Shown here: positions 9,114-33,837 of the stretch, piece by piece
Position numbering within the stretch: position 1 is the first letter of the stretch
Layout: each line of letters begins with the position of its first letter
Virus record (IMG/VR): IMGVR_UViG_3300042554_001993
Location: 1 to 39,023 of that record
DNA length: 39,023 nucleotides
From: a virus
Direction: 5' to 3' (one strand)
Translations under genes and position numbers: made by a program
Notes under the pieces: generated by a model
The model's input: only the letters and a program-made list of their open reading frames with translations
Databases searched by the model: none
What the model was told of the DNA's origin: nothing

Positions 9114-10234
9114 AGCTTTTGGGTTTCCTTTTCCTGCTGCAACTCGATTTCTAATTTTTGTACTTTATCCCAAGCGAATAGGTACTTGCCCTGCCAATCG
9201 GCAATAGCACTAAGCGTCTGGTATATTTTGTCCCTGTATTGCTTTTTGCGGTTCAATGCCTCGCCAGCAGCCAACAATTTTTGCAGTTGGTCCGAAAACT
9301 TGGTCGTAACCAGATTCAGTCGTTGCAATTGTTCAACGGCATTTACCAGCGTCCGCAATCGCTGCTTCGCAGTATCTAACTTTTTAGCTGGTTTTGCAAG
9401 CGCAGATAGTTGTTTTCCGAGTGCATTTGTTTTGGCTAGACCTCCGCAAACACCATCAACCGAAAGCAAGCATTCAGCCAGCTTGATCTTTTTGGCCTTC
9501 GCTTTGGTTAGCCGTTGTGCCAGATCCCGTATCCCAGCAGCCGCCACCAGCATTTCCCCAACGGTGCCGATCTGGTCAGATACCGATTCCAGTCGGGATA
9601 TAGCTTGCTCTAGCTTGTCTTTGCGTTCGTGTGCCGATTCTAAGTCGTAGTACATTTTTTCTAATACTGTCAGCCTTTCATCAGCTACGCTAATCCAAGC
9701 CATGTTCTCGCATGTCTTGGCTTGCTGCTCAGCCAGCGTTTCCAGGGATTGCACAGTGGCCTTAATAGCATTGTGCCTAGAGTTGATTTCTGAGTTTGCC
9801 TGATCGATCACCGATAGGTCTACAATACGGTTTAGTTCGCGGGCCATCTGCCCCGGCGTCAGCGTCAGCAGAAACGGGGGATCGTGTTGCCCCTGTAAAC
9901 AAATTTCGGAGAGTCCCAAGACTTGCCGCACCGGTGCTGGCTGGGCGTTGGCGCAAGCAACATATACGCCGCCGTCTACGGAGTAGCCGTAACCATCCTC
10001 ATTCTTAAACCGAATGACCGAGCCGTTGTCTGTTCTCAGCTTAACGAAAGTATTATCCTCGCCATGCTTCTGCAAACCGCTGATAGGCTTATGCTCAACC
10101 ACCCAGCGAATGGCCCTAAACACCGAAGATTTACCGGCGTTGCTGGGGCCGACAATTACGGTGATTCCTGGCGATATGGGGACATCAAGCTCGCTATGAG
10201 CCTGGAAGTTCTTTAGCTCGACGGATTTAAGCAT
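9080..10234 (-). CDS. Rad50/SbcC-like ATPase, N-terminal half ending at the zinc hook
   Basis: A 384-residue protein. It has a Walker A motif GPSNAGKSS near residues 29-37 in a typical SMC/SbcC N-terminal ATPase fold, a Q-loop-like LQGQHDPP segment near 114, then about 230 residues of helical coiled coil. It ends immediately after a CPLC motif (C375, C378), the Rad50 zinc-hook signature. Walker B and the ABC signature are absent and are found in the gene at 7271-7864. The break therefore falls at the hook apex. Partner of the Mre11-like nuclease. Confidence 0.85.
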   Translation of the reverse strand: MLKSVELKNFQAHSELDVPISPGITVIVGPSNAGKSSVFRAIRWVVEHKPISGLQKHGEDNTFVKLRTDNGSVIRFKNEDGYGYSVDGGVYVACANAQPAPVRQVLGLSEICLQGQHDPPFLLTLTPGQMARELNRIVDLSVIDQANSEINSRHNAIKATVQSLETLAEQQAKTCENMAWISVADERLTVLEKMYYDLESAHERKDKLEQAISRLESVSDQIGTVGEMLVAAAGIRDLAQRLTKAKAKKIKLAECLLSVDGVCGGLAKTNALGKQLSALAKPAKKLDTAKQRLRTLVNAVEQLQRLNLVTTKFSDQLQKLLAAGEALNRKKQYRDKIYQTLSAIADWQGKYLFAWDKVQKLEIELQQEKETQKLCPLCQKPLNQ

Positions 10235-11430
10235 GTCGGGAGATATTTATCTGGAACGAAGTGCTGGCTAATGATCTCATTTTCCACCATTTGTACAGAT
10301 GCTAGCAATAGCTCGGAAATGGCGTCTATGCCATTGTAGGTCAGGAGCGCGGGCATTGCTACTTGGTGGATCTTGTTTCGTTCAGCGTTGGACGGGGCAT
10401 CAAAGTATTGCTCGACATCCTCGGCAAAGTATGGGATTCCCAGCCGGGCAAAGGCTTGGAATTTCAAACCGGTGACCCCTTCCATCGGGTTTTCCCAGTG
10501 GGCGGCTTGCATGGTATCCCAGTACCAGTTCCTCACGCGAACACCCAGCTTTTTATACGACCATCGCTCCTCGAATTTCATGTTCGCGGCGATTTTCTTT
10601 CCTGGAGATTGCAGGTAGGCTTTCAGCGCCGCCACGCAATCCGAGAACAGCGGAAATGCAATACATTTGATTTCCCCGCTTTCCACCCAAGCAATCGAAA
10701 CACTGACGATTTCATGGGCGTCCCATTCCGGTTTCAAGCCGGTAGTTTCGTAGTCAAATGCCGAATACTCAGCCGTATCTGCGATATGGGCTAATAGATT
10801 GTTGATCTCGGACGAGTTGTAGATAGATTTGACCAAAGACTTCGGCTCAATGATCGGCTTTTCCCACGGTCTTTTGGTGATCCTGATAGCGTCACGCAGC
10901 CATCGAAAAGCAAACATGGTGCTGATGTCACCCTGGCCCTTGTGTGTGGCAGGTAGACCCACAGGACATATCCACGCATTCAAATCCCTAGACGGGATCT
11001 TTTGGCCGTACCACCGGTCGTATAGCTCGGCTGGGTGCTGCCAATACCTTCCAACCACGGATTGAGTAGCCTTTGGGCCGTATGGAATGACCACTACCGG
11101 GTCCAGCCGGGCTAGCTCTGCACCTACTAGGGGCTGGCAATGCCGCCAAGCCTCCGTAGAGGCCCCAGGACACGCTGTAACGGGGATTTTGGCGTAGGAG
11201 TCCAGGGTGATCCCGACTCGCGTACAGAGCGTCCTAAGCCGCTTAAAATCGGCATGGATCAGGGCGTTGTCGATGTCCTGATCTAGTTCCGGGACGACAA
11301 ATACCACCGGCGTCCTATTTCCCTTCCAATGCTGCTTAGGGAAGCGGCAGTCGCGGTCGGCTTTGCAGACGCCGCAGTTTGGGATGACCGGCAGTTTTTT
11401 CTTGGTTACTGTCCCAGTGAAGAACGGCAT
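10213..11430 (-). CDS. UDG-like domain fused to 3'-5' exonuclease: N-terminal half of a split family A DNA polymerase
   Basis: A 405-residue protein. Residues 1-185 resemble a family 4 uracil-DNA glycosylase-like domain, with iron-sulfur-type cysteines C19, C22 and C28. The usual GEAPG and HPS catalytic motifs are degenerate, so it may be non-catalytic. Residues about 215-400 are a DnaQ/KlenowExo domain: FDYETTG (D226, E228, Exo I), NMKFEERW (Exo II) and a YNGIDAISELL Exo III-like segment. The same UDG-exonuclease order occurs at the N-terminus of SPO1-like phage polymerases. The polymerase domain is absent here and is encoded 9.3 kb away at 20779-22146. Confidence 0.8.
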   Translation of the reverse strand: MPFFTGTVTKKKLPVIPNCGVCKADRDCRFPKQHWKGNRTPVVFVVPELDQDIDNALIHADFKRLRTLCTRVGITLDSYAKIPVTACPGASTEAWRHCQPLVGAELARLDPVVVIPYGPKATQSVVGRYWQHPAELYDRWYGQKIPSRDLNAWICPVGLPATHKGQGDISTMFAFRWLRDAIRITKRPWEKPIIEPKSLVKSIYNSSEINNLLAHIADTAEYSAFDYETTGLKPEWDAHEIVSVSIAWVESGEIKCIAFPLFSDCVAALKAYLQSPGKKIAANMKFEERWSYKKLGVRVRNWYWDTMQAAHWENPMEGVTGLKFQAFARLGIPYFAEDVEQYFDAPSNAERNKIHQVAMPALLTYNGIDAISELLLASVQMVENEIISQHFVPDKYLPTCLNPSS

Positions 11431-17417: not shown

Positions 17418-17468
17418 CGGTTTTCCCGGTTAGGAAATGTCGGGTTTTTGTGAAAAGTCCCTACAAAA

Positions 17469-17589
17469 TGGATCAGGCAGGATTTGAACCTGCTGGCAAG
17501 CTATGTACAACTCGCTTTCGTTTTATCACCGTGTGTGGCCCCTAGTCGCCCTCGCCACAGGTCGCGTTTTCCCACAACGCCGCTGATCC
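17469..17589 (-). tRNA. tRNA-like RNA with canonical T arm but oversized central region
   Basis: On the minus strand GGATCAG (17589-17583) pairs perfectly with CTGATCC (17476-17470), giving a seven-base acceptor stem with discriminator A and no encoded CCA. A T arm with loop TTCAAAT and stem GCAGG/CCTGC is at 17493-17477. A D-arm-like hairpin GCGT...ACGC with GGG in its loop is at 17580-17564. Between them the RNA is about 45 bases too long for a normal tRNA: TGTGGC/GCCACA encloses a 14-base loop instead of a seven-base anticodon loop, and GCGAG/CTTGC forms a further arm. It may be a tRNA with an insertion, a degenerate tRNA or a tRNA mimic. No anticodon can be assigned. Confidence 0.5.
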
Positions 17590-20204: not shown

Positions 20205-20786
20205 TTATTCTTCCTCAGGGAGATAGGTTTTCATCACTTCGTTGATTCGCCGGTGAAATTGGGGTAGCGAACCGTCGTTTAGGATTTTGCGGGAGATGGT
20301 GAATAGCTGCTGTTCGCTGCTGTGCTGAGGTAACAAAGCAACTTCATCCGATACTCGGCCCTCGATCTCCCAAATTTCCCCGCCGTTAGCGTAAATGTAC
20401 TCGGCTTCCTCGGGGAATCGAACATCCCGGAATACGACTCTTGGGGCATTCATTTCCTTTACTCGCTGCTTGGCGATGTTGACCCAGCAGTAAGGACCAA
20501 ATAGGTTTCTGCCGTTCTCGGTGCCGATGGTTCTCAGCATCGCCCGAATCTCAGGATACCGGCGTTTTGCAATATCCCAGCCATGCTTGTTGACCAGTGT
20601 TTGCAAGTACACGGCGCGATGATGCGCGATCACGATGGCAGGGTTAAGTCGGTACAGCGACTCATAAACCGGGTCTGAGAACCCAATCATGGAATAACCG
20701 AAGAAATGGCAAAGGTAGGTGGCGCAGGTATCCTTGCCGGAACCAATGGCCCCTTTAAGTCCAATAAAACTTGGTAATTTATTCAT
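20205..20786 (-). CDS. deoxynucleoside monophosphate kinase (T4 gp1-like)
   Basis: A 193-residue P-loop kinase. GLKGAIGSGKDT near residues 9-20 is the Walker A motif, with the K-D-T variant characteristic of gp1-type dNMP kinases; RTIGTENGRNLFG near 84 and RDVRFPEEAEYI near 115 match the NMP-binding and LID-side regions. It phosphorylates dNMPs to dNDPs for phage synthesis. ATG 20786 is preferred because it lies in the last codons of the polymerase gene (eight-base overlap); an in-frame start 14 codons further up would read deep into that gene. Confidence 0.82.
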   Translation of the reverse strand: MNKLPSFIGLKGAIGSGKDTCATYLCHFFGYSMIGFSDPVYESLYRLNPAIVIAHHRAVYLQTLVNKHGWDIAKRRYPEIRAMLRTIGTENGRNLFGPYCWVNIAKQRVKEMNAPRVVFRDVRFPEEAEYIYANGGEIWEIEGRVSDEVALLPQHSSEQQLFTISRKILNDGSLPQFHRRINEVMKTYLPEEE

Positions 20787-22146
20787 GTTCTTTCCCCATA
20801 TAAGGTTTCTTGCTGGCCCACGAATCACCCACTTCTACCTCGGTTTTTAGATCAACTATGATCCAAGGCCACTGTGTCCGTAGCCACCGGGTCATGGTGT
20901 CCGTAGCCAGTGCTATATAGTCATCCAGTTCTTCCCTTGGAACCTCGGCAAGCAACGAATCATGTATCTGGCAAAACAACCGGCTTTTCATCTTTTTAGC
21001 AGCCAGTTGTTTTGTAATCTGGATTATGCTTTTGAGCAAGCAATGAAACGCCGCCCCTTGGACCGGGCTGTTAATGACTTCGTTGCGTTTGAATACGCCC
21101 CAAACCCTAAATCCAGTGTGGGTACAAAAGTGGCCGTTTCGTAGGTAGTTCAGGTAGAAATCTTTTCGCCATCGACTATACACCGGGAATCTCTGTTCCC
21201 AGAACCGTTTTTCTACGTCATGGATATGCTGCATAAACGAATCTGGAGTCATGGCGTCCTCGTTGCCAAGGTGTATGATCCCTTTCGACCGCAGGTGAGA
21301 TTCCAGCAATGCGCCTGATTCCATTGTGTGCTTCTGGGCAAACTTCCAGAGGTTTCTAGCGATGCTGGCAAAGTAGTCCCCGTAGAAAGCTGCGAATACA
21401 AATAATCCCTTAACCTGCGTTCTAATCGGCTTTTCTGACTTGTCGAGCCTATAGCATTCGATTGCCATATCCCGGTGCAAATCGTGCCCTGTCTCAAGAT
21501 ACTCGATCATCACCGGGTCTTTGTGGTAGCAGGCTGCAATATGTACTTCCAGCGCCGAGTAATCAATTTCCACAATGACGTTATTCGGGTCGTTCGGCTT
21601 TATCACCGAACGAATAACCGAACCAATGTCGGGATCGCGGATAGGGATATTCTGTAGATTGGGTGAATCCGACGATGATCTATAAGTTACAACCCGGTGC
21701 AGATTGAAGAATCCATGCACTCGATTGCCGCAGACTTCCTTGCGGATTCCCTGCAAGTAGGTACTGCATAGCTTATGCAGCTTTTGTGTTCTCTGAAACA
21801 ACTTGGTGTAGTCGCTGCCGATGTCCCGTAGAATGCTGTCGTCCAGCATTATGTTGCCGTTTTCGGGATTGATTGTAGGGTTTTCGTAGCCCATGACATT
21901 GTAGAGAATGTCGGCTAGCTGCTCCCTGGAGCCGATTTTAGCTTTGATACCGTATTTCTTGCGCTGTTCCCGGTATTCTGGCATATCCCGCAGAGCAGAT
22001 TCGTTTTCTTTGATCTGATCCTGTATGCGAATGATGGCAGCATCAAGGCCGGGAACGTCGATTGGCATTCCAATCTGTTCCATCCTTGTAAGCGCTAACG
22101 CCCCTTCGTGCATTAGCGCGTATGCCTGTTTGCTTGCCGGTTTCAT
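20779..22146 (-). CDS. family A DNA polymerase, polymerase domain only (split gene)
   Basis: A 455-residue protein comprising thumb, palm and fingers of a Pol I family enzyme: TRMEQIGMPID near residue 20, YRSSSDSPNLQNIP near 155 (template contact), motif A EIDYSALE (D195), motif B with R242 and K246 followed by FVFAAFYGDY of the phage type, and motif C QIHDS (H395, D396). There is no 3'-5' exonuclease or UDG-like domain; these are encoded by 10213-11430. It should copy the phage genome with the clamp at 11645-12652. It starts three bases after the end of a tiny membrane protein gene. Confidence 0.9.
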   Translation of the reverse strand: MKPASKQAYALMHEGALALTRMEQIGMPIDVPGLDAAIIRIQDQIKENESALRDMPEYREQRKKYGIKAKIGSREQLADILYNVMGYENPTINPENGNIMLDDSILRDIGSDYTKLFQRTQKLHKLCSTYLQGIRKEVCGNRVHGFFNLHRVVTYRSSSDSPNLQNIPIRDPDIGSVIRSVIKPNDPNNVIVEIDYSALEVHIAACYHKDPVMIEYLETGHDLHRDMAIECYRLDKSEKPIRTQVKGLFVFAAFYGDYFASIARNLWKFAQKHTMESGALLESHLRSKGIIHLGNEDAMTPDSFMQHIHDVEKRFWEQRFPVYSRWRKDFYLNYLRNGHFCTHTGFRVWGVFKRNEVINSPVQGAAFHCLLKSIIQITKQLAAKKMKSRLFCQIHDSLLAEVPREELDDYIALATDTMTRWLRTQWPWIIVDLKTEVEVGDSWASKKPYMGKEHE

Positions 22147-22669: not shown

Positions 22670-23524
22670 CTACCCAGTGTACGGCTTTTGTCCGGTGCTA
22701 ATCGCGTAAAAAACCATATCGACGGGAAGAAAGTCAGAATTTTCGATTTGCTTTACCTCGGGTGTAATGAATTTGCTGGGGATAAACCCAATGCCAGCGC
22801 CGCCCGCAACAGCGTATTTAATCTCGCTCGGGGTTTCCATGTTAGCGATAAACATGGCGTTCTGGCCGTTTAGTGCGGTTTCCACAGCACGTTGGTTTGC
22901 CGTGTTGGTCATGTCAGAGTAGCCGATGACTCGCAAAGGTTTGTGCCTAAGCATGTCCTGATCCATGCTAGACTGGATAGGCACTAACGGCAGCCGAAAA
23001 ATCTCTACGCAGTCGTAGTTACTATAAGAATTTGTACTGAGCATGAATGTATCCTTGCCCAGAATAAATTTTTGTAATACTTCAATCTCTGTACCTTTGG
23101 TGGTAATCTTACGGACGAAGTAGTTCTGATCGATCTGCCGCAGCGCGGCGTTCAAGTCGCCCCAGAAAGCGCTGTGAATCCAGCTTTGGCATACGATGCT
23201 GATTCGGTTTTGCAGAAAATGATCCTGCTCGTACTTTGCCATCTGTTGACGCATGTACTTGTGCGTATTGACGACTCGCTTGGCGTACTTTACTAGGTCT
23301 AAGCCTGCTTTGGTAGGTCGGGAGCTATTAGGGTGGAATAGCTGCAAGCCAAGTTCTTTCTCCGTCTTTCGGTTGTTTGTGCTGACCACCGCCGGGCTGC
23401 GAAGCCCCAGAGCCTTTTGCGCCTTGGCTGCATCGCCGTGCTGTACTGTCGCCAAAAACATAACCAACTGATCCAGGGTAGGCAGCATTGTCCATTCTGG
23501 TTTTAGTTTGTCTCGTCGTGTCAT
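22670..23524 (-). CDS. LysR-type transcriptional regulator
   Basis: A 284-residue protein. Residues about 14-75 match the LysR winged helix-turn-helix: LPTLDQLVMFLATVQHGD, then AKAQKALGLRSPAVVS and KTEKELGLQLFHPN...PTKAGLDL. The rest looks like the two-lobed periplasmic-binding-protein-type effector domain, including a GAGIGFIPS segment near 252. The start at 23524 shares a base with the helicase stop (TAATG). LysR regulators are common in bacteria but unusual in the middle of a phage replication operon. Effector and targets unknown. Confidence 0.8.
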   Translation of the reverse strand: MTRRDKLKPEWTMLPTLDQLVMFLATVQHGDAAKAQKALGLRSPAVVSTNNRKTEKELGLQLFHPNSSRPTKAGLDLVKYAKRVVNTHKYMRQQMAKYEQDHFLQNRISIVCQSWIHSAFWGDLNAALRQIDQNYFVRKITTKGTEIEVLQKFILGKDTFMLSTNSYSNYDCVEIFRLPLVPIQSSMDQDMLRHKPLRVIGYSDMTNTANQRAVETALNGQNAMFIANMETPSEIKYAVAGGAGIGFIPSKFITPEVKQIENSDFLPVDMVFYAISTGQKPYTG

Positions 23525-24900
23525 TACTCCCCCCAAGCCGATAATAAGCTAGGCCGCCCAACCTTCGTGCAGCCCGCTACTGCAATCCAGTTGGGGCGGC
23601 CTTGCATGAACTCAGCTTCTCGCAAAGCGACATAGTTGTATCTGCACACGCCCATGCGGCGCTCCTGTTCGGTCATGTTTAATCCAACCATTGCGGTAAC
23701 GTGTGCGATTTTCTTTTTGCAGTCCGAAAAGTTTTTCTTGGATAGCAGCCATGCGCTGTACCCTTCTGTATCTGATTGGGTAGCAGTAACGACTAGGCTA
23801 CGAGTCCGTGTTGATAATGCTCGCAGTTCTTCCCAGTTCGCATTGATCTGGTCCCTTGGCTCTTTGTAGCCTCTAGGACCGGCCAAAATATCGGCATAGT
23901 CGATGACAAAGACATCTGGCATCCACCCCTCGTCTGCCCAACGCTGCGACATTGCCGATATATCTGCTGCTGTGATCGTGCCTGCTGGGTACGTCAGCAA
24001 TCGAAATCGAGTAGGATCGGCCTGTCCGCTTTGCTGGAAAGCGGCGATTGCTTCATCCTTTGTAATCGGCTGTGCAGTCCTAGCTTCCCATTTTACGGCA
24101 GGCTCTTTGTCTTTATACACGACTTCGGACGGAACGTGAAATGTTCCGCCTTTTAGCGGCTTGCGGCAAAGCCTGGGCGCAAGCCGCAGGATCATTTGAG
24201 CCTGCGACATATCGCCACAGGAGAACAACGCGACCCGCTTGTTCTGCGAAACGGCTCTCCATGCTAAGTCAAGCAGTACCGTGGTTTTCCCTGTCTTTTC
24301 CGGGGCCAGAAACGAAACAAACGAATCAGCGCTAAAGATGTCCCCAAAAAACTCTCCCAGCGCGCCTGGATACTTGATTAGCGGTTCTCGGTTAGCGTAA
24401 GAAAACGCATCCTCGATTACCTTAGCATCCTGTAGCGGGAACACTCCAGCCTCTTGCTCTCCGACTTTGGGGCGTTTCCATGCGACTTGCAGGTTTAGGG
24501 CGTCCTCTAGTTTGCCATTCTCAATCAGCGAGGTAATGCCTTGCCCTAGCCGCTTTAGGCTTTGCTTCTGGACGATGTTATTGATTGTGTCGATGGCGTA
24601 GTCATCGTTCAAACCTGATTCTTCCGGTAGATTCGTTAGCCAGTCCGAAACGGTCTGCGCAAACGACTCGTCTGCCGTTTCCTTCCAAAGATCGAATCGG
24701 CTAGTGATGCCCGCAGCGCCGGGGGCTTGTTGGTACTTCTGCCAGTGGTCAACGCACCAGTCGGCAATTAGGTTGCCCCAACGCGACCCGAAGCTATCTC
24801 GCTGCCATAACGGGGCTACCGAGCCTAGTACAGCGTCCGACAACACCATAGCCACTACGGCGTGGCGTTCCTCTGCTCCATCGTGCCTGATTACTCGCAT
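23524..24900 (-). CDS. DnaB-like replicative helicase
   Basis: A 458-residue protein. An N-terminal helical domain (about 1-165) is followed by a RecA-like motor: Walker A APEKTGKT near residue 199, Walker B FVIDYADIL near 330, a TATQSD segment near 368 matching the H3 glutamine, and a C-terminal arginine region. It is expected to unwind the fork as a hexamer together with the adjacent primase, which it overlaps by ten bases. Confidence 0.85.
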   Translation of the reverse strand: MRVIRHDGAEERHAVVAMVLSDAVLGSVAPLWQRDSFGSRWGNLIADWCVDHWQKYQQAPGAAGITSRFDLWKETADESFAQTVSDWLTNLPEESGLNDDYAIDTINNIVQKQSLKRLGQGITSLIENGKLEDALNLQVAWKRPKVGEQEAGVFPLQDAKVIEDAFSYANREPLIKYPGALGEFFGDIFSADSFVSFLAPEKTGKTTVLLDLAWRAVSQNKRVALFSCGDMSQAQMILRLAPRLCRKPLKGGTFHVPSEVVYKDKEPAVKWEARTAQPITKDEAIAAFQQSGQADPTRFRLLTYPAGTITAADISAMSQRWADEGWMPDVFVIDYADILAGPRGYKEPRDQINANWEELRALSTRTRSLVVTATQSDTEGYSAWLLSKKNFSDCKKKIAHVTAMVGLNMTEQERRMGVCRYNYVALREAEFMQGRPNWIAVAGCTKVGRPSLLSAWGE

Positions 24901-25763
24901 TCCAGCCCCGCAAATTTCCTAAGTTCCATAATCTCCCCTTGGCTAGCCGATCCAGGGTCATCTGCATCCAGACAAACCTGTAAAGTTTCACCAGGGAATA
25001 CCGCTAAATCAGCAGCCAGCCTAGCCGCTACGGCCTGTGCGTCAGGCGAATTGTCGAAGCAGACCACCCTACGAGCATACCGGCTCATTAGATATACCTG
25101 TTTCGCGGTATATTGCAAGCCAAAAGTACAAACCGCACCGGGGCCAATGTTTGCCATATCGAAAAACCCTTCGACGATGATAGCGGTATGGCCGCAAGAT
25201 TCTGCGCCGAACAACAGATCCTTCTCGGACATGGTTTTCTCTGCATCCTTGGCGGTGAAGTATCGCTGCTCTCCTTGCGCAGCCTCTCGAAACCGAATAG
25301 TCCAGGAAACAGGACGATGGTTGTAAGTGATCGGTATAAAGATCCCGCGACGAAGGCCGGAAAACGGCCCAACCGACTTCAAGCCGTACCTACTGATTAG
25401 CAAGTCGGGATCTAGCTTTCGCTCTGTTTTGAGGTAGTCGCGGTCCTTGGGGGTAAGGTCTACCAAGCCCTTTGGCGGCGTATAAATTCCGTACTGCTTC
25501 TCGACATGCTCTACCGGTGCATACGCTGCTAGCGACCGAAGCAATTCAAACGGCTGCGCGGTTAAGGCACGAAGCGCGCTAATTACGTTTTTCGGGCCGC
25601 ACTTGTAGCAGCTAGCCCTGGAAAAATCGTTTTTGATTCCTAGTAGGAATTTTGTGCTATGGCAATAAGGGCACTGTACATTCGACCAGTATGAACGAAA
25701 ATGCGGGTTGCTTTGGTCGGCAACCCGCACTTGGTTCTGTTCTAAAAATTCCTTGGCGTTCAT
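24891..25763 (-). CDS. DnaG-like primase
   Basis: A 290-residue protein. An N-terminal zinc ribbon (CPYC near residue 31 and CYKC near 52) precedes a TOPRIM domain: IIVEGFFDM near 195 with the catalytic glutamate and a CFDNSPDAQA segment near 239 with the DxD-like acids. At 290 residues it is compact compared with bacterial DnaG (about 580) and lacks the helicase-binding C-terminal domain, as often in phages. It would make RNA primers at the fork with the neighbouring helicase. Confidence 0.88.
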   Translation of the reverse strand: MNAKEFLEQNQVRVADQSNPHFRSYWSNVQCPYCHSTKFLLGIKNDFSRASCYKCGPKNVISALRALTAQPFELLRSLAAYAPVEHVEKQYGIYTPPKGLVDLTPKDRDYLKTERKLDPDLLISRYGLKSVGPFSGLRRGIFIPITYNHRPVSWTIRFREAAQGEQRYFTAKDAEKTMSEKDLLFGAESCGHTAIIVEGFFDMANIGPGAVCTFGLQYTAKQVYLMSRYARRVVCFDNSPDAQAVAARLAADLAVFPGETLQVCLDADDPGSASQGEIMELRKFAGLECE

Positions 25764-26352: not shown

Positions 26353-26553
26353 TTACTCCGGTACTTTATTGGCCTTAGCGTCGATTTCTCTAAATACGCA
26401 TTCACGCCATGCTAGCTCAAGACCATCATATATGCCCTGCTGATACGTCATGCGTTGGATCGATGCTTTTCTGTTGTGGTATAGATCGACCACTCGAAAA
26501 TACTCAGCTTTTGCTTTGTCCATTTTTTGCTTAATTGCTTCGGTTATACTCAC
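26353..26553 (-). CDS. small hypothetical protein
   Basis: A 66-residue helical protein. Its start overlaps the upstream stop by ATGA and its stop lies two bases from the next gene, so it is an operon member. The QGIYDGLELAWRE stretch resembles short phage accessory proteins; no function can be assigned. Confidence 0.65.
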   Translation of the reverse strand: MSITEAIKQKMDKAKAEYFRVVDLYHNRKASIQRMTYQQGIYDGLELAWRECVFREIDAKANKVPE

Positions 26554-26933
26554 TCCGTCACCTCCACGCCAAACGGCACACCGTCATCGCAGACGTAATT
26601 ATCAAAAACATACTCGTATGTTCGGGTGTAATTAGCGACTGTGATGAGTGAGTTGCTCATCTCAACAATACGAAATAAATGACGATCATTGTCCTTTGCT
26701 CGTAGCTTACGATCAAAAAATGGTTCTGCCTCCGTACCGTTTTCAAACGGCCTGTAACGCTTTTGCTTCTCGATCTTGCGAACGATTGGCCGAGCAACAA
26801 CCATTCCTATTTCGCCCTCCGTAATTCCAAATTGCCCATCAAGGTAGTAATCACCTTTGGACGGAACGCCAATCCGCACCACCTCCCAACCATCCGGCAC
26901 ACCTGGGATGCCTCGAAAACCTTGCTCGCTCAT
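26550..26933 (-). CDS. conserved-type small phage protein
   Basis: A 127-residue protein. The PDGWEVVRIGVPSKGDYYLDG opening is a pattern I have seen in short phage proteins of unknown role. It is beta-rich with no catalytic motif visible. ATGA overlap with the following gene. Confidence 0.7.
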   Translation of the reverse strand: MSEQGFRGIPGVPDGWEVVRIGVPSKGDYYLDGQFGITEGEIGMVVARPIVRKIEKQKRYRPFENGTEAEPFFDRKLRAKDNDRHLFRIVEMSNSLITVANYTRTYEYVFDNYVCDDGVPFGVEVTE

Positions 26934-27301: not shown

Positions 27302-27326
27302 TCAACATATCACCGTGATATGTTGA
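27302..27326. promoter_or_regulatory. 25-bp near-perfect palindrome
   Basis: TCAACATATCAC and GTGATATGTTGA are perfect inverted repeats around one central C. There is no U-run on either side, so it is not a typical terminator. The dyad suits an operator for a dimeric DNA-binding protein. It lies between the last phage core gene and the lone core site that begins the cassette array. Confidence 0.6.
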
Positions 27327-27342
27327 TGTCCGCATACTATTT

Positions 27343-27349
27343 GTTAGGT
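27343..27349 (+). other. lone core site GTTAGGT at the left end of the array (attI-like or degenerate attC)
   Basis: GTTAGGT fits the GTTRRRY core consensus and equals the inverse of ACCTAAC, the R'' box of the first complete attC, as expected for a recombination boundary. No convincing attC arm lies to its left, so it could be an attI-like or secondary site, or the remains of an attC. The TAA stop of the 81-aa gene lies inside it. Confidence 0.6.
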
Positions 27350-27589
27350 GGATGCTGGTTGACGCCCAAGCCAATCAATCATCTGCAACGCTGCTTGCCT
27401 GCTACGGAAAAAAGCGTCTCTCCAATCGTTACCCGGAACTGCGTACAAATACTGTCGCAAATGCAACGGCACTTCATCCAGGGTCACAAAGCCTCGCCCC
27501 ATGTAGCCTGTTGCCACACGATAAACCGTTGCTCTCGATCCATCGGAATGTATCTGCACATCGCAGTCGTCAACTCGAAATCCAGCCAT
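27344..27589 (-). CDS. cassette 1 gene: small hypothetical protein
   Basis: An 81-residue protein. ATG 27589 shares a base with the TGA of the upstream gene in the same cassette. The sequence is mixed alpha/beta with no recognised motif. Its stop codon TAA is part of the GTTAGGT core site, a typical way in which cassettes end tightly around their genes (here at the other end than usual). Confidence 0.65.
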   Translation of the reverse strand: MAGFRVDDCDVQIHSDGSRATVYRVATGYMGRGFVTLDEVPLHLRQYLYAVPGNDWRDAFFRSRQAALQMIDWLGRQPAST

Positions 27590-27966
27590 CACAACACCTC
27601 ATCCCCAAAGTACTGCTTTTCGTACTTGCGGCTTTCGCCGCACAGCAAGCATTGGTCGTAATCCGAATCGTCCACCGCTTCCCAGTCGTGCTCACACACA
27701 TCAAACGTCTCGGCAAAGACGAACGACTTAATGGGCAACGCCCATCTGCCCTTAGCGTCTCTGACAATCCAATCACCTACCGAAACCCTTACTTCATGCT
27801 GGCTACGGTTCTTAACGTAAATATCTGTTCCGTCGTGGCGTGCTTTCTCGCCATGAGAAATTAACCAATTGACAATCGAATCCATTTGTCGATTGTCTGC
27901 CTCGTTGTTCGTCGTAAACTGAACCGCTTCGACTACTTCTGGTTTTCTGATGTATTTCTGAATCAT
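27589..27966 (-). CDS. cassette 1 gene: common small phage protein (MIQKYIRKPEVVEAVQF type)
   Basis: A 125-residue protein. The N-terminus MIQKYIRKPEVVEAVQFT and a later VSVGDWIVRDAKGRW segment mark a widespread phage family of unknown function. A C-terminal CEHDW...CLLCGESRKY part looks like a zinc ribbon (CxxC plus Cys/His). ATG 27966 lies seven bases after the R'' box of attC-1, with AGGTG upstream. It shows that a typical phage gene sits inside an attC-bounded cassette. Confidence 0.75.
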   Translation of the reverse strand: MIQKYIRKPEVVEAVQFTTNNEADNRQMDSIVNWLISHGEKARHDGTDIYVKNRSQHEVRVSVGDWIVRDAKGRWALPIKSFVFAETFDVCEHDWEAVDDSDYDQCLLCGESRKYEKQYFGDEVL

Positions 27967-27972
27967 GCACAC

Positions 27973-28062
27973 ACCTAACAAAATGTTGCATCCGAGTCGC
28001 GGGTCGGCTGCTTTGTAAAATCAACGTCATCCGCCGCGACCGGATGAACATTAGCGTTAGCC
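27973..28062 (+). repeat. attC-like site 1
   Basis: R'' ACCTAAC, R' GTTAGCC. Stem blocks AATGTT, CATCCG and GTCGCGG on the left arm pair perfectly with CCGCGAC, CGGATG and AACATT on the right arm, with an extra G and an extra A left unpaired on the left arm. Unpaired spacers AA and AGC sit next to the terminal AAC/GTT. The stop codon of the 112-aa gene lies in R'. Confidence 0.85.
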
Positions 28063-28395
28063 CGATCGTCGCGACGACTTGCGCAACTCTCGGAAAGCGA
28101 TGCCAGCCGCCATAGCTAGCCCTGAATAGACACCCCAATGGAAATCCGCCAATGTCGCATTGCCGTTTTGTATCGCGTCCAGCCTTGCGTCTTTGGCAAA
28201 CTTCATTCGTCGCATAATCTCGCGTCTTGCAGACTTGAGAATTGCACCGTCTCGAGTGGTCATTTCGTCAATCGTGTTGATCCAATTGCAGATGCACCGC
28301 TCGCCTTTACTCGAGCCGCACGCCTCGCACCCATCAAGCGACGGGCTAACAATTGGATGCATCGAAGCGGCATCCACGCTTTCTTTTTTGCTCAT
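28057..28395 (-). CDS. cassette 2 gene: small Cys-rich hypothetical protein
   Basis: A 112-residue protein starting MSKKESVDAAS, with CEACGSSKGERCIC near residue 23 (possible zinc site), a basic helical middle and a hydrophobic HWGVYSGLAMAAGIAF segment near the end. ATG 28395 has AAAGGA upstream and lies inside the loop of attC-2, so its first 16 or so codons are attC sequence. The TAA stop lies in the GTTAGCC core of attC-1. A longer upstream frame reads across attC-2 and is rejected. Confidence 0.65.
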   Translation of the reverse strand: MSKKESVDAASMHPIVSPSLDGCEACGSSKGERCICNWINTIDEMTTRDGAILKSARREIMRRMKFAKDARLDAIQNGNATLADFHWGVYSGLAMAAGIAFRELRKSSRRSG

Positions 28396-28434
28396 AGTTT
28401 TTCCTTTGCCGCTCGATGATCCATTGCGTTCGCC
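28344..28434 (+). repeat. attC-like site 2
   Basis: R'' GGCTAAC, R' GTTCGCC. Left-arm blocks TGGAT, CATCG and AGCGGC pair with GCCGCT, CGATG and ATCCA on the right; unpaired G and A lie between the blocks on the left arm. R'' is exactly complementary to the GTTAGCC that begins its own cassette at 28056-28062. The loop contains the start codon of the 112-aa gene. Confidence 0.88.
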
Positions 28435-28438
28435 GTAC

Positions 28439-28708
28439 CTAGCTTGCGGCTTGGTCCAGCACCTTCCGCAACCTGTCGCGACATCGGCGGAAAACACCTT
28501 CATCGCCCCAAACTTCCGCGAGGTGATCCAATTCGCCCAACACGCTTCGGACCTCAACCTCAAACATTTCAACCCGCGATTGCATTTCGCCGATTCGCCC
28601 TTGGACTGGACGACCTGTCTCTGACTCATCCGCTGTCGCCCCTGTCAATTCAAACGACAATCGCAATTCGTTACCGCATCCATCGCATTCGTAAAACTTG
28701 TATTCCAT
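28439..28708 (-). CDS. cassette 3 gene: small zinc-ribbon-like protein
   Basis: An 89-residue protein starting MEYKFYECDGCGNELRLSF, with a CDGC half-ribbon, followed by an acidic helical region with heptad-like spacing. ATG 28708 is 19 bases from the R'' box of attC-3; the upstream frame continues through that attC and is not coding. TAG lies four bases beyond the R' box of attC-2, so the gene fills the cassette almost completely. Confidence 0.65.
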   Translation of the reverse strand: MEYKFYECDGCGNELRLSFELTGATADESETGRPVQGRIGEMQSRVEMFEVEVRSVLGELDHLAEVWGDEGVFRRCRDRLRKVLDQAAS

Positions 28709-28727
28709 AATGAAAACCCAAAAGGAC

Positions 28728-28818
28728 GACGAACAAAGCGGTGAACCGAAGTCGCCGATAGTCCGCTTTCTAAAATCCGAGTCTCTTGGCGGCGACTCGG
28801 TTACCGCTGCCGTTCGTC
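28728..28818 (+). repeat. attC-like site 3
   Basis: R'' GACGAAC, R' GTTCGTC. Left-arm blocks AGCGGT, AACCG and AGTCGCCG pair with CGGCGACT, CGGTT and ACCGCT; the extra G and A are unpaired on the left arm as in the other sites. R'' matches its own cassette start (GTTCGCC) at six of seven positions. Confidence 0.88.
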
Positions 28819-28821
28819 GTA

Positions 28822-29001
28822 TCAACCTGCACGAGCAGAGAGGAACAACGGCAACATGATCGGCCAAAATAAGGCATAGACAAACGGACGCCACAAGTCT
28901 TCGCTACGTCCACCAAGAACACAAAAGAACCCAACGAAGAGAAACGTAGCAACCGCTCCGGTGACGTATACACCGGCAAGAAATCCATAAAACATCTTCA
29001 C
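28822..29001 (-). CDS. cassette 4 gene: 59-aa membrane protein
   Basis: GTG start at 29001 is chosen because a perfect AAGGAG lies six bases upstream; an earlier in-frame ATG reads through attC-4. The product starts MKMFYGFLAGVYV, has a first hydrophobic segment through FLFVGFFCVLGG, a short polar loop with EDLWRP, and a second hydrophobic segment near the C-terminus. Two membrane passes. TGA is three bases past the R' of attC-3. Confidence 0.7.
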   Translation of the reverse strand: MKMFYGFLAGVYVTGAVATFLFVGFFCVLGGRSEDLWRPFVYALFWPIMLPLFLSARAG

Positions 29002-29020
29002 GATTAACTCCTTAATAAAC

Positions 29021-29109
29021 GACGAACAAACCCATGCACCCAAGCGGCGATCAGGTGCTATATCTTGGAAACCATCACCCCGCCGCTGGGTGATGGGTAG
29101 GCGTTCGTC
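29021..29109 (+). repeat. attC-like site 4
   Basis: R'' GACGAAC, R' GTTCGTC. Left-arm blocks CCCAT, CACCC and AGCGGCG pair with CGCCGCT, GGGTG and ATGGG, with unpaired G and A. R'' is exactly complementary to its own cassette start. It is nearly identical in sequence to attC site 6. Confidence 0.88.
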
Positions 29110-29112
29110 TAC

Positions 29113-29424
29113 CTAATCCAATTGGATCTCAATGCAAGCCGCCAAGTTGGGTTTGCCGTAGCAATCAATCCACGACTTCGACGACATTCGCCGCTTCGAA
29201 AATCCAACGATGACTCCCTTGCGTCGATTCTGTTTTCCATATCCTTTACTGATCGTCACGCGACGACCAACCTTACACGTTCTCTCGTTCCATCGCGGCC
29301 CGTATAGCCGATATTCCACCGTCTTTGACCCGTCGCAAAATGCATCATAGTATTCCGTCTTGAGCGGGATAAAAAGCGACGAACAACGCGATGGACCCAA
29401 GCCCTCATCGTTGGTTTCTGACAT
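29113..29424 (-). CDS. cassette 5 gene: ASCH-domain-like protein
   Basis: A 103-residue protein. FIPLKTEYYDAFCDGSKTVEY near residue 18 and RRVTISKGYG near 54 match the ASCH (ASC-1 homology) fold: a hydrophobic strand, a helix with D-x-F, a G-x-KT-x-E-x-R motif and a beta-strand 'rvtiskGyg'. ASCH proteins bind or process RNA or modified nucleosides. ATG 29424 has an excellent AAAGGAGG and lies inside the loop of attC-5, so the first 16 or so residues are encoded by attC sequence. Confidence 0.7.
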   Translation of the reverse strand: MSETNDEGLGPSRCSSLFIPLKTEYYDAFCDGSKTVEYRLYGPRWNERTCKVGRRVTISKGYGKQNRRKGVIVGFSKRRMSSKSWIDCYGKPNLAACIEIQLD

Positions 29425-29466
29425 TTTTAACCCTCCTTTCGGGCTGGGTCATCGCCAGCGTTATAC
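29378..29466 (+). repeat. attC-like site 5
   Basis: R'' GACGAAC, R' GTTATAC. Left-arm blocks GCGAT, GACCC and AGCCC pair with GGGCT, GGGTC and ATCGC; extra G and A unpaired. R'' matches the GTTCGTC that starts its own cassette exactly, but does not match the adjacent R' GTTATAC, as expected if R' belongs to the next cassette. Confidence 0.86.
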
Positions 29467-29748
29467 GGACTTCTGTTGCAAGTCTCGCAACGTCTCACCA
29501 AACTGAATGAACTGCGTCGGGTCGCAATGGTGAATCTCTATTGGATCGCCTTCACCAAACGGAAATTCCCCGTCGTGCCATACGAAAACATCAATACACG
29601 AATCTGGCTCCTTGCCCATTACAGCAACGGCCTTTCCGACATATCCGCCCATTTGCGGATACCAAATTGCGTAGGCTATGTTGTGCTCTGTTTCGCCAAC
29701 CAAAGCGTTCTGGCTGCACTGTTCGCCCGTAGGTTCTTGTAGTTTCAT
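29461..29748 (-). CDS. cassette 6 gene: small hypothetical protein
   Basis: A 95-residue acidic protein. ATG 29748 has GAGGT just upstream and lies 17 bases from the R'' of attC-6; an upstream in-frame start would be inside the attC stem. No domain recognised; a DVFVWHDGEFPFGEGDPIE stretch suggests a beta-rich fold. The TAA stop lies inside the GTTATAC core. Confidence 0.65.
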   Translation of the reverse strand: MKLQEPTGEQCSQNALVGETEHNIAYAIWYPQMGGYVGKAVAVMGKEPDSCIDVFVWHDGEFPFGEGDPIEIHHCDPTQFIQFGETLRDLQQKSV

Positions 29749-29764
29749 GCTTACCTCAATCGCC

Positions 29765-29853
29765 GCATAACAAACCCATGCACCCAAGCGGCGATTGGGT
29801 GCTCTATCGTTGAAACCATCACCCCGCCGCTGGGTGATGGGTAGGTGTTCGTC
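29765..29853 (+). repeat. attC-like site 6
   Basis: R'' GCATAAC, R' GTTCGTC. Stem blocks are identical to site 4 (CCCAT, CACCC, AGCGGCG) with the same unpaired G and A. R'' corresponds to GTTATGC, one base from the GTTATAC of its own cassette start; the R'' therefore differs from site 4 although the stem and loop are nearly identical. Confidence 0.88.
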
Positions 29854-29857
29854 GTAC

Positions 29858-29971
29858 CTAGTGGATTATCTTTGCGACCGTCCACGCTGTTTTCAAATCC
29901 ATGTTTCCGCCAGCCGGTGACTCTCGCCACACGATCCGCACAAACAACCACAATCGTCTAATTATCTTCAT
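29858..29971 (-). CDS. cassette 7 gene: 37-aa basic peptide
   Basis: A 37-residue frame, MKIIRRLWLFVRIVWRESPAG followed by about 16 residues. The start forms ATGA with the preceding gene. It is amphipathic and Arg/Trp-rich. Short, so moderate confidence. Confidence 0.45.
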   Translation of the reverse strand: MKIIRRLWLFVRIVWRESPAGGNMDLKTAWTVAKIIH

Positions 29972-30246
29972 TCGCTTCGCACTCCAAACACAAAATCCAG
30001 CTTTGTGTATTCCAGCGGTGGCAACTTTGCTTTGTACGAATGAAACCATGCTGCCATTAACTGCACAAACCCGTCGCTGGCTTCGCCACCATCAACGAAA
30101 TCGACGGCTACACCGCGAAGCTGAGCAATCGCTACTGCCTGCGAAATCGCACTTGATGGAGATGCTCCCACTCCGACGCATGTTCCGCGATCGGTCGCAA
30201 CTCCAAACACGCTCCCGCGAATCGTATGAACTTTCCACGATTTCAT
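29968..30246 (-). CDS. cassette 7 gene: small hypothetical protein
   Basis: A 92-residue protein with no recognised family. It begins directly after the TAA of the upstream gene and ends in an ATGA overlap. The GVGASPSSAISQAVAIA segment is a likely helix. Function unknown. Confidence 0.65.
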   Translation of the reverse strand: MKSWKVHTIRGSVFGVATDRGTCVGVGASPSSAISQAVAIAQLRGVAVDFVDGGEASDGFVQLMAAWFHSYKAKLPPLEYTKLDFVFGVRSE

Positions 30247-30429
30247 TTACTTGACCCCAACAAAATGACTGTGTTCGCGGTGCCCGCACTTATGGCAAAC
30301 CTGCTCGATGCACCACCCTAAACCATACTTGATCCAATAACTGCCATCGTATTCGTGCCGACACTCGGTAGAGGCCGACGAACAATCGGATGAACCCAAG
30401 TGCTCGGTCTGTTGTTTTTCGTTGTCCAT
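30247..30429 (-). CDS. cassette 7 gene: zinc-ribbon-like protein starting in a truncated attC
   Basis: A 60-residue protein with CRHEYDGSYW and CHKCGHREHSH, a Cys/His set compatible with one zinc. The ATG at 30429 has ACGGAG upstream and lies beyond the surviving arm of attC-7, so residues 9-18 or so (HLGSSDCSS) are attC sequence. This mirrors GLGPSRCSS in the ASCH gene, where a homologous attC arm is translated in the same frame. Confidence 0.65.
   Translation of the reverse strand: MDNEKQQTEHLGSSDCSSASTECRHEYDGSYWIKYGLGWCIEQVCHKCGHREHSHFVGVK
30377..30408 (+). repeat. attC-like site 7, left arm only
   Basis: R'' GACGAAC followed by TCGGAT, G, AACCC, A and AGTGCTCGG has the same spacing as the left arms of sites 1-6. 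R'' is exactly complementary to the GTTCGTC that starts cassette 7. I find no matching right arm in the following 400 bases, so the array seems truncated here. Confidence 0.7.
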
Positions 30430-30465: not shown

Positions 30466-30738
30466 TCACTGTGCAATCCCAAGTTGTGGCACCAGCGTAT
30501 CCAGTTGCTTTTTAACGAGCCGCTGGGTTTCTCGCTCTTGTTTCTTCGCATTCCGAAGCCGGTGAACATCCATCAAATATCGATCTCCGTTCTTTATAGC
30601 CTCTTGCAGTACGATTGTCCCCAATTCCTCAACGGTGCATTCCAACTGGCACGCCAAGGTTTTGAAGTCGATCACCAAGTCCGCCGGAAGTCGGTTAATG
30701 GTTAAGTTTCTTGTTTGTGGTTTTAGTGGGTTTTGCAT
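30466..30738 (-). CDS. ribbon-helix-helix-like small protein
   Basis: A 90-residue basic protein. RNLTINRLPADLVIDFKTLA near residue 10 resembles the strand-helix start of Arc/MetJ (RHH) DNA-binding proteins, followed by a second helix and a Lys/Arg/Gln-rich tail. Likely a small DNA-binding regulator, but tentative. It overlaps the SNF2 gene end by 44 bases. Confidence 0.6.
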   Translation of the reverse strand: MQNPLKPQTRNLTINRLPADLVIDFKTLACQLECTVEELGTIVLQEAIKNGDRYLMDVHRLRNAKKQERETQRLVKKQLDTLVPQLGIAQ

Positions 30739-32083
30739 TTAGTAGTCCTCCCTTTTTAGATAACAATATGTCAAGCACGGGCAATTCCGTGTTTTGGTGC
30801 CCGTCGATGATGCTGTTTGATATGCGCTGCTTGTTTTGAATAGCATCGCATAGTCGTTCCTCAATCGATCCTGGCACCACTAAATAGTAAATTGTGCATT
30901 CTTTGTTTTGCGTCAGCCGGTGTACCCGGTCTGCCGCCTGTTCCATAGCCGATGGCGTCCACCACAATTCAGCCATCGCCACCGTGGACGAAGCTGTAAG
31001 CGTGATCCCAACGCCAGCCGCCTTGATATTCGCCACCATAAGCCGAGTCCCAGGATCATTCTGGAACTGGTCTACGATGGCTTGACGTTTCTTAGTGGAC
31101 ACTGAGCCATCGATGGCCACAGCGCCCTCTGGTAGTATTCTTCGGCGTAAAACGTCAATCATCGCCGTATGAATCCCGAAAAGAATCAATTTTTCTTGGG
31201 GGTTGTCTGCGAGGAATGCCCTAGCCCAGTTTACGATGGCGCGGCACTTCAAGCGGCTAGTCAGCCGAAGCAGCACTCCCAACCTTGTCACAGCCTCCGC
31301 TTTCTTAGCCGAGGCTACGTTCCCCATTTTGCTGTTCTCGCTGAGCCAGCCAATAAAGTCGGTTTCTGCCTTTTGTAATTCCTCTGGATTATCCAGAGAC
31401 ATCGGCAACACTACCAGCTTTTTGCTTGGTAAATCCAAAACCTTATCTTTGAGGCGACGAAGCGTAAACGGCTGAATCGCTGCGTGCAATTCCTCCAGAT
31501 TCTTAGCCCCTTTGTATTCCCAGCCCCACGGGGATTTCTTAGGATCACAAAATTTCCAAGCATAGGCTTGCCAGCTTGGGAATAGCTCTGGCCGAATGAT
31601 GTTCAATATCGGCCAAAAGTCAGCCGGTCGGTTCATCACCGGCGTACCGGATATGCCGATCACCTTTGTAGATAGCCTAGAAAGCCGCTTAGCGGCCTTT
31701 GTACGCTTCGCGGCGCGGTTAGCCAAATTGTGGCACTCGTCAAACGCGATGCACTTCCACGGCACGTTTAGAAGCGCTGGCTGTTGTTCGTACAGGATGT
31801 CATAGTTGACGATAACCGCCTTTGGCAGATCGTCCGGGAGTGCGGTCGGCTCTTTGCCGGACAGAATCAGCGAGTCAGCGCCCGCCCAGGTCCGCAGTTC
31901 TCGCTCCCAGTTGTGTTTAAGCGATGCGGGACACACAACGAGCATAGGCCATAGGTCTTGGCGCTTAGCGAGGGTAGATACCTGCGCAGTCTTTCCAAGT
32001 CCCATCTGGTCGGCTAATAAAATGCCGCCGTGGACCTTTTCCATGAAGGCTACGCCTTCCTCTTGGTACGGAAATAGTTGCAT
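30695..32083 (-). CDS. SNF2-family ATPase / helicase
   Basis: A 462-residue superfamily 2 motor of the Snf2/SMARCAL1-like type. Motif I ADQMGLGKTAQ near residue 24, Ia VVCPASLKHNWE, II DECHNL (D-E-C-H) near 114, III GISGTP near 144, a C-terminal RecA lobe with MVANIKAAGVGITLTAS (motif V) near 351 and ADRVHRLTQ (motif VI) near 383. Phages carry such ATPases for fork remodelling or recombination. The gene is short, without flanking domains. Confidence 0.88.
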   Translation of the reverse strand: MQLFPYQEEGVAFMEKVHGGILLADQMGLGKTAQVSTLAKRQDLWPMLVVCPASLKHNWERELRTWAGADSLILSGKEPTALPDDLPKAVIVNYDILYEQQPALLNVPWKCIAFDECHNLANRAAKRTKAAKRLSRLSTKVIGISGTPVMNRPADFWPILNIIRPELFPSWQAYAWKFCDPKKSPWGWEYKGAKNLEELHAAIQPFTLRRLKDKVLDLPSKKLVVLPMSLDNPEELQKAETDFIGWLSENSKMGNVASAKKAEAVTRLGVLLRLTSRLKCRAIVNWARAFLADNPQEKLILFGIHTAMIDVLRRRILPEGAVAIDGSVSTKKRQAIVDQFQNDPGTRLMVANIKAAGVGITLTASSTVAMAELWWTPSAMEQAADRVHRLTQNKECTIYYLVVPGSIEERLCDAIQNKQRISNSIIDGHQNTELPVLDILLSKKGGLLNAKPTKTTNKKLNH

Positions 32084-33038: not shown

Positions 33039-33704
33039 TCAAGATTTTTTGCTAAGAGCCTTTTCCACAGACCAGCCTCTGTTCAGCCGCATTAGCAGAG
33101 TCCAGTAACCAATGCCAAGCTCGTCAGCCCATTCCGTAAGACTTTTGGTTTTCCCGTTATGCGTTATTAGCCTAGTCGTGGTTCTATTTCTAGTTTGTTC
33201 TAAAGGTGTTGCCCAGCGACAGTTTTCTGGACAGTAGTTGCCGTTTACATCGATTCGATCAATCGAATGCTTAGGTGTTGGTTTTCGTCCCATGTCGGCT
33301 AAGAAATTTTGAAATCCATTTTCGCCTGACCAGCGTTCGCAAACCTTTATGCCTCTGCCACCATAATGTTGGAAACCATATACATTTGGATTACCGCATC
33401 TTGCTTTTATGTTGGTCCAGCATGCATATTCCGGTGTTCTGCTTTCGCCGTGTTTTGTTCTGGTCTTTTTTGCCATTTCAGTTCGTAGGCATCCGCAGCT
33501 TTTTGTATCGCCATCGGCAAGACGGGTTGTTAGGATGACTCGGACATTACCACAGGCACAGCTACAAACCTGAAAAGCCTGTCGGTTTCCAGTTTTGCCG
33601 GTAGGCAATAAAAACTTGGGACCGATGGTCGTTAAACGACCAAAGGTTTCCGGCTCAAAAGACTTGGCAATGCGGATTCCGTGTACTAGAATGTACTCAG
33701 CCAT
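33039..33704 (-). CDS. HNH-type homing-endonuclease-like protein
   Basis: A 221-residue protein. An N-terminal part carries a Cys-rich SCACGN...SCGCLR pattern, the middle has YACWTNIKARCGNP, HYGGRGIKVCERW and FQNFLADMGRKP, and then SIDRIDVNGNYCPENCRWA near 155-175, the known signature of a phage HNH/AP2-associated family. A C-terminal helix-turn-helix-like region (SLTEWADELGIGYWTL) follows, a likely DNA-recognition part. ATG 33704 is preferred over an upstream start because AGAGGA lies before it. Probably a selfish mobile gene. Confidence 0.75.
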   Translation of the reverse strand: MAEYILVHGIRIAKSFEPETFGRLTTIGPKFLLPTGKTGNRQAFQVCSCACGNVRVILTTRLADGDTKSCGCLRTEMAKKTRTKHGESRTPEYACWTNIKARCGNPNVYGFQHYGGRGIKVCERWSGENGFQNFLADMGRKPTPKHSIDRIDVNGNYCPENCRWATPLEQTRNRTTTRLITHNGKTKSLTEWADELGIGYWTLLMRLNRGWSVEKALSKKS

Positions 33705-33733
33705 GATAGTTCCTCTATAACTAGATTGGTTAG

Positions 33734-33766
33734 AAAAGCCGATGCAGCTACAACTGCTCGGCTTTT
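33734..33766. terminator. strong hairpin between divergent genes
   Basis: AAAAGCCGA (then one bulged T) GCAG pairs with CTGC TCGGCTTTT around a six-base loop (33734-33766). On the + strand it is followed by CGCATTTT; on the minus strand the stem itself ends in UUUU. It can stop leftward transcripts that run antisense through 33838-34729, and it resembles the hairpin at 37044-37081. Confidence 0.65.
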
Positions 33767-33783
33767 CGCATTTTAGCCCAAAA

Positions 33784-33812
33784 GTTTTACGACGGCAACT
33801 CTTTGCTATAAT
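33784..33812 (+). promoter_or_regulatory. extended -10 promoter for the 33838 gene
   Basis: TGCTATAAT (extended -10; TATAAT at 33807-33812) lies 25 bases before the ATG; a weak -35 (TTTTAC) is 16 bases upstream. The leader contains AAAAGGGG, a good Shine-Dalgarno. This promoter drives the three-gene + strand island. Confidence 0.6.
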
Positions 33813-33837
33813 CAAAACAAACTAAAAGGGGCTACAG

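Follow-up and report, generated by a model that had tools for sequence, protein, structure and literature searches.

A probable integron-type cassette array, with inverted genes and no integrase, in the replication region of a tailed phage

Sedentary chromosomal arrays, exemplified by the VCRs of Vibrio cholerae, contain many small genes of unknown function, with similar hairpins beside unrelated genes and R boxes that are specific to each cassette. The phage array described here has these traits too, but differs by its lack of intI, its reversed genes and its location in a phage replication region. The annotated reverse genes of Vibrio integrons such as parD/E3 have single inverted promoters, not all-inverted arrays (PMC11014356). 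Qi et al. (2023, PMC9892861) have reported clusters of attC sites lacking integrase (CALINs) from phages, both virulent and temperate. In that work IntI1 recombined five of the six tested phage attCs with attI1, two sites of Tetrasphaera phage TJE1 were tested with IntI1, and TJE1 and PH101 were called typical. The bare finding of a phage array is therefore not unprecedented, and the suggestion of an undescribed phenomenon, made in an earlier note on this DNA drawn from its letters, does not stand.

The locus resembles the published phage CALINs in that attC sites cluster without intI in a phage genome. It departs from them by attC-internal translation starts and by visible turnover and sharing of cassettes between phages. 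In TJE1 the attCs follow genes in the canonical direction, whereas here all genes are inverted. Phage CALINs are thus already known; the all-inverted genes, the attC-internal start signals and the sharing between unrelated phages appear to be new, as our searches of open-access papers turned up no description of any of them.

The other system to be compared is that of the SAS and ESAS of cluster K mycobacteriophages, inverted-repeat elements located upstream of the translation starts of small non-structural genes, with a 13-bp SAS motif, GGGATAGGAGCCC (PMC3203893). Both here and there, repeated elements are found at the translation starts of small phage genes. However, ESAS stay with one gene family in all genomes, whereas the hairpins described below reassort with genes across phages and have attC boxes and one-sided extra bases.

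attC sites in the phage replication region

The window, i.e., the whole stretch of DNA analyzed, is the complete IMG/VR record IMGVR_UViG_3300042554_001993 (39,023 nt). It encodes a split DNA polymerase, a DnaB-like helicase, a primase, a clamp loader, a UvsX-like recombinase and a small terminase, all of tailed-phage type. The array is flanked upstream by an SNF2-type helicase gene (30695-32083; phrog_62, E 6.6e-107) and downstream by the DnaB-like helicase and primase genes (23524-25763), all on the - strand, in agreement with the placing of the array in a replication region by the earlier note. Searches with the phage DNA polymerase and helicase yielded no close cultured relative, and an Rfam scan gave no matches.

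Other features of the record are given here as observations. The DNA polymerase looks split into two ORFs about 9 kb apart (10213-11430 and 20779-22146), which align to consecutive parts of phrog_17 (664-825 and 833-1236). GAATTC, CGATCG and TTAA are strongly depleted over the whole window, with 1, 2 and 59 occurrences against 9.2, 9.6 and 145 expected from base composition. A stretch reminiscent of the 3′ half of a tRNA, AGCAGGTTCAAATCCTGCCTGATCCATT, is present at 17430-17494, where no tRNA was called; near-identical copies are found in phage contigs L183 (three) and L186, and one L186 copy abuts the last cassette box.

A structural scan of the window identified six complete attC-like sites with AAC and GTT ends, all on the + strand; in Markov-shuffled sequence the same scan gave 0 to 3 weak matches per 39 kb. 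The sites are attC 1 (27971-28064, AAC to GTT 27977-28058), attC 2 (28342-28436, 28348-28430), attC 3 (28726-28820, 28732-28814), attC 4 (29019-29111, 29025-29105), attC 5 (29376-29468, 29382-29462) and attC 6 (29763-29855, 29769-29849). A half attC consisting of the R″ and L″ arm only (30373-30404, +) closes the distal end of the array. The six full sites and the half site proposed in the earlier note were found again, and in addition a lone box, G^TTAGGTGG, marks the array edge at 27343-27351 (+). This box, which contains the first predicted junction (27343/44), occupies the side on which an integron would have its attI, and it matches the R″ box of cassette 1, ACACCTAAC, at 8 of 9 positions. 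Just beyond this edge, a perfect 12-bp palindrome, TCAACATATCAC-c-GTGATATGTTGA, is found at 27302-27326; sister phages have a different hairpin in its place.

Each full site has an AA-type left spacer and a GC-type right spacer, and its left arm contains an extra G followed by an extra A, the architecture that the earlier note had described. attC 4 and attC 6 are near copies of each other (92% identical). That structure is constant while stem sequences vary, as had also been claimed, was apparent in a set of nine sites, the six of the window plus three of a sister phage: 92.5% of stem cells pair, compared with 29 to 46% in partner-slid controls, and 13 of the 18 stem pairs show compensatory changes on both sides. 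In a larger alignment of phage sites, 84.3% of positions are paired against 29 to 37% when the partner is slid, and AAC and GTT, with the predicted cut at G^TT, are invariant across the 23 sites aligned.

We built a covariance model, R1, from nine phage sites and ran it over 80 bacterial loci picked because they encode IntI. All 12 matches were on the strand opposite intI, the side expected for cassette arrays, and the bacterial sites align to the phage sites with the same AACAA....TGCA....A layout. A second model, R2, was made from 60 bacterial sites only; these sites were first found with the phage-derived R1, and the independence of R2 thus rests on its detection of the aadA1 attC of R100, of two attCs in TJE1 (1014-1077 and 1460-1521) and of arrays at intI loci in other genomes. 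R2 detected attC 1 to attC 6 with 72.1, 66.4, 67.1, 64.5, 51.8 and 53.9 bits, respectively, i.e., 52 to 72 bits. All these matches were on the + strand, and R2 gave no further match anywhere in the window at E values up to 10. The sites of the window are attC by structure, and the covariance check proposed in the earlier note, carried out with a bacterial-attC model, detects all six.

A search for an integron integrase (TIGR02249), which the earlier note had also called for, gave no match in the window or its relatives, all phage contigs being fragments; among these fragmentary records there is accordingly no complete integron with intI in cis. With six sites in 1.9 kb and no integron integrase in the record, the array is a CALIN, defined as two or more neighboring attCs without integrase.

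In a blastn comparison (L132/L167), attC 3 shares 73% identity over 81 nt with an attC of one genome in our cyanobacterial sample. Phage-like attCs were detected in 23 of the 36 genomes of one cyanobacterial order versus 4 to 7% of other samples, but the larger samples were scored with stricter filters, and we therefore claim no host. Within the cyanobacterial sample, a full intI is present in genomes G031 and G009, whose attCs are the most phage-like of the bacterial ones; this represents a lead on the host, not proof. A scan of bacterial loci based on one extra base was too weak to be of use.

Cassette boundaries, inverted genes and start signals

Cutting at G^TT divides the array into seven cassettes on the + strand, whose facing end boxes match at seven to nine of nine positions: cassette 1, with two inverted genes (27344-28056; 8/9), cassette 2 (28057-28428; 9/9), cassette 3 (28429-28812; 8/9), cassette 4 (28813-29103; 9/9), cassette 5 (29104-29460; 7/9), cassette 6 (29461-29847; 8/9) and cassette 7, which ends in the half attC (29848-30404; 8/9). 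The box at the start of a cassette is thus complementary to its own R″, as in attC cassettes. The earlier note had pointed out this match and the disagreement of R″ with the neighboring R′ within sites 1, 2, 5 and 6, and both were seen. Altogether 57 of 63 positions agree, against a mean of 44.4 after permutation, and only 12 of the 5040 permutations are as good. When start and end boxes were compared over their six variable bases in a set of 25 cassettes, 122 of 150 positions agreed (permuted mean 73 ± 7; 122 reached in none of 200,000 permutations), while the two boxes within one site agree at only 2.8 of 6. Circular cassettes predict such matching within cassettes, and homologous recombination between repeats does not. 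End boxes match poorly in 4 of the 25 cassettes, which counts against a cassette array as the explanation.

The + strand of the window corresponds to the canonical attC top strand, and all the cassette genes are on the - strand. Cassette 1 encodes an 81-residue protein of no family, with its TAA stop in the array-edge box (27344-27589), and a 125-residue member of the phage family phrog_419, of unknown function (27589-27966; E 2.5e-17). Cassette 2 encodes 112 residues from within attC 2 (28057-28395), cassette 3 encodes 89 residues (28439-28708), cassette 4 a membrane-like protein of 59 residues (28822-29001), cassette 5 a phrog_625 protein of 103 residues (29113-29424), cassette 6 a protein of 95 residues (29461-29748), and cassette 7 proteins of 92 (29968-30246) and 60 residues (30247-30429). 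The usual gene orientation relative to the attC top strand, which is typical of cassettes but not defining, is thus not found here. A nearest-gene test found an inverted gene at all 10 phage sites that were scored, versus a canonical gene at 47 of 66 bacterial sites; in R100 and TJE1, gene and attC run in the same direction. As gene stops abut the AAC box, we considered that the attCs might have the opposite polarity, with canonical genes. This was rejected: R1 and R2 detect the sites on the + strand only, aligned with real attC top strands.

In three of the seven cassettes of the window, a ribosome-binding site (RBS) and start codon are located inside the attC or half attC, and the gene reads through the arm, which encodes the N terminus. 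The ATG is at 28395 in the loop of attC 2 and at 29424 in that of attC 5, and the half attC at 30373-30404 encodes the N-terminal leader of gene 30247-30429. The earlier note, whose attC assignment and cassette logic were borne out, had overlooked both the inversion of the genes and these internal starts. Over all the phages found, start signals are present inside about 15 of 24 sites (hand count).

The 29113-29424 gene is the clearest case. Its homologues in other phages begin with M..PLFIPLK; here these first residues are swapped for the attC-encoded MSETNDEGLGPSRCSS, joined at the R″ box GTTCGTCGC, and the same attC-encoded leader precedes a different gene body in L177/L178. Similarly, the leader and arm of 30247-30429 recur with 97% identity over 64 nt in the unrelated phage L179, there in front of another gene; relatives of gene 30247-30429 itself occupy a different position in two other phages.

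Such loops raise the possibility that the hairpins are phage translation-initiation or RNA elements, akin to SAS/ESAS, which spread as repeats while homologous recombination shuffles the genes, their attC likeness being convergent. The RBS and ATG in many of the loops are in line with this, as are the existence of chimeric and half sites and of 80 to 97% identical hairpins adjoining unrelated genes. However, initiation elements do not predict matching boxes at both ends of a gene body, extra bases confined to one arm or recognition of one strand by a bacterial-attC model, and about nine phage sites have no internal start codon. We consider this explanation unlikely, and favor an integron-type cassette array.

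Turnover and sharing of cassettes among phages

Related viral contigs were found with an RBS-loop pattern and with the cassette proteins; a degenerate attC-arm pattern gave only chance matches over viral contigs. The sister phage L001/L025 is 95% identical in DNA to the window over the aligned flanks, and the array between them is almost entirely different, with three other full sites and further partial or chimeric units. One gene body is common to both arrays, at another position and with 66% identity of the protein. No attC is present in the more remote helicase relatives (L002-L024), whose identity is mostly around 70% and falls to 29% in some. The same context within phage flanks in the independent record L001/L025, together with four or more other IMG/VR contigs that carry related arrays, contradicts an artificial fusion of bacterial integron DNA to phage DNA during assembly or binning, which a single metagenomic contig might have suggested and which we regard as extremely improbable. 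As a side observation, L025 carries at 4574-5234 an HNH-like endonuclease gene inserted in the gene matching window 26550-26933; the endonuclease is 39% identical to the product of window gene 33039-33815.

Related sites are also carried by contigs L171/L182, L172/L186, L177-L178 and L179/L183, whose backbones have no homology to the core genes of the window over the stretches compared; L182 has an ordinary phage integrase and a head protein, and L183 has a weak match to terminase as well as a ferredoxin-like gene. Between arrays, including those of phages with non-homologous sampled backbones, hairpin identity is 80 to 97%, and the same hairpin adjoins unrelated gene bodies in different phages. 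L001 and L171 have one cassette body in common, at 95% identity. For 17 of the 18 alignments that cover an attC in two arrays, similarity starts no more than 15 nt from the AAC box and stops no more than 13 nt from the GTT box. At the edge equivalent to that of the window at 27343, L025, L186 and L183 share a platform flank that starts precisely with the AAC of the last box, while the preceding cassettes differ; two of these backbones are non-homologous to the third, and the window's own edge is different. Within the array of L182 (reverse complement), a 247-nt repeat (8759-9005 and 9217-9463, 89%) represents a recent duplication of part of a cassette and the start of the next attC.

Comparison between phages thus shows exchange at the G^TT junction, with cassettes apparently swapped at breakpoints in attC boxes. 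The cassette-level turnover at predicted junctions anticipated in the earlier note is borne out, although its author had missed that unrelated phages share the system. Neither the invariant repeats nor the scores at the level of shuffled hairpins that would have spoken against that note's reading were observed. Some observations fit the cassette reading less well. Reassortment of hairpins and gene bodies is seen to either side of a hairpin, beyond what simple attC x attC exchange predicts, and some sites of the sister phage are chimeric or halved, with arms that have lost their pairing (L001 1786, 2353 and 3499), as expected from homologous recombination between repeats. The chimeric sites indicate that homologous recombination between hairpins also adds to the reshuffling.

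These comparisons also bear on whether the array might be a decayed bacterial CALIN, acquired once by a phage and no longer mobile. The lack of integrase in the record and the half site at the distal end would fit, and phage CALINs of bacterial origin are known (PMC9892861). Yet an array almost wholly replaced between 95% identical flanks, hairpins and a cassette body common to unrelated phages, compensatory changes kept in the stems and two cassette genes of phage protein families argue against decay, which we find a little less plausible still than convergent initiation elements. We regard the locus as very probably an integron-type cassette array that lacks an integrase of its own, lies among the replication genes of a tailed phage and is probably mobilized in trans by an integrase of the host.

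A possible exchange network of phages

Such an array could operate as follows. The - strand, on which the genes lie, would be the recombinogenic one. Exposed as single-stranded DNA while the phage replicates, it may fold, and an integron integrase provided by the host would recombine the folded strand at G^TT. Since every gene runs against its attC, transcription of the cassette genes would arrive from the helicase side. Where the loop provides the RBS and ATG and the 3′ arm encodes the N terminus, attC and gene would together form a complete translation unit. The occurrence of the same hairpins in phages with unrelated backbones suggests that phages exchange small early genes through a common cassette pool.

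More tentatively, and with somewhat less than even confidence, we propose that phages maintain a cassette-exchange network of their own, distinct from bacterial arrays. Its cassettes would be backward, its attCs would serve both as recombination sites and as translation starts, start-less genes would be fused to them, and host integrase would move the cassettes between unrelated phages. The locus bears on how cassettes arise: other phages carry homologues of gene 29113-29424 outside cassettes, and the point where the start-less body of this gene meets the attC can be read at the R″ box. If the proposal is true, integron recombination would be the viruses' own route of gene exchange, rather than an occasional carriage of bacterial cassettes.
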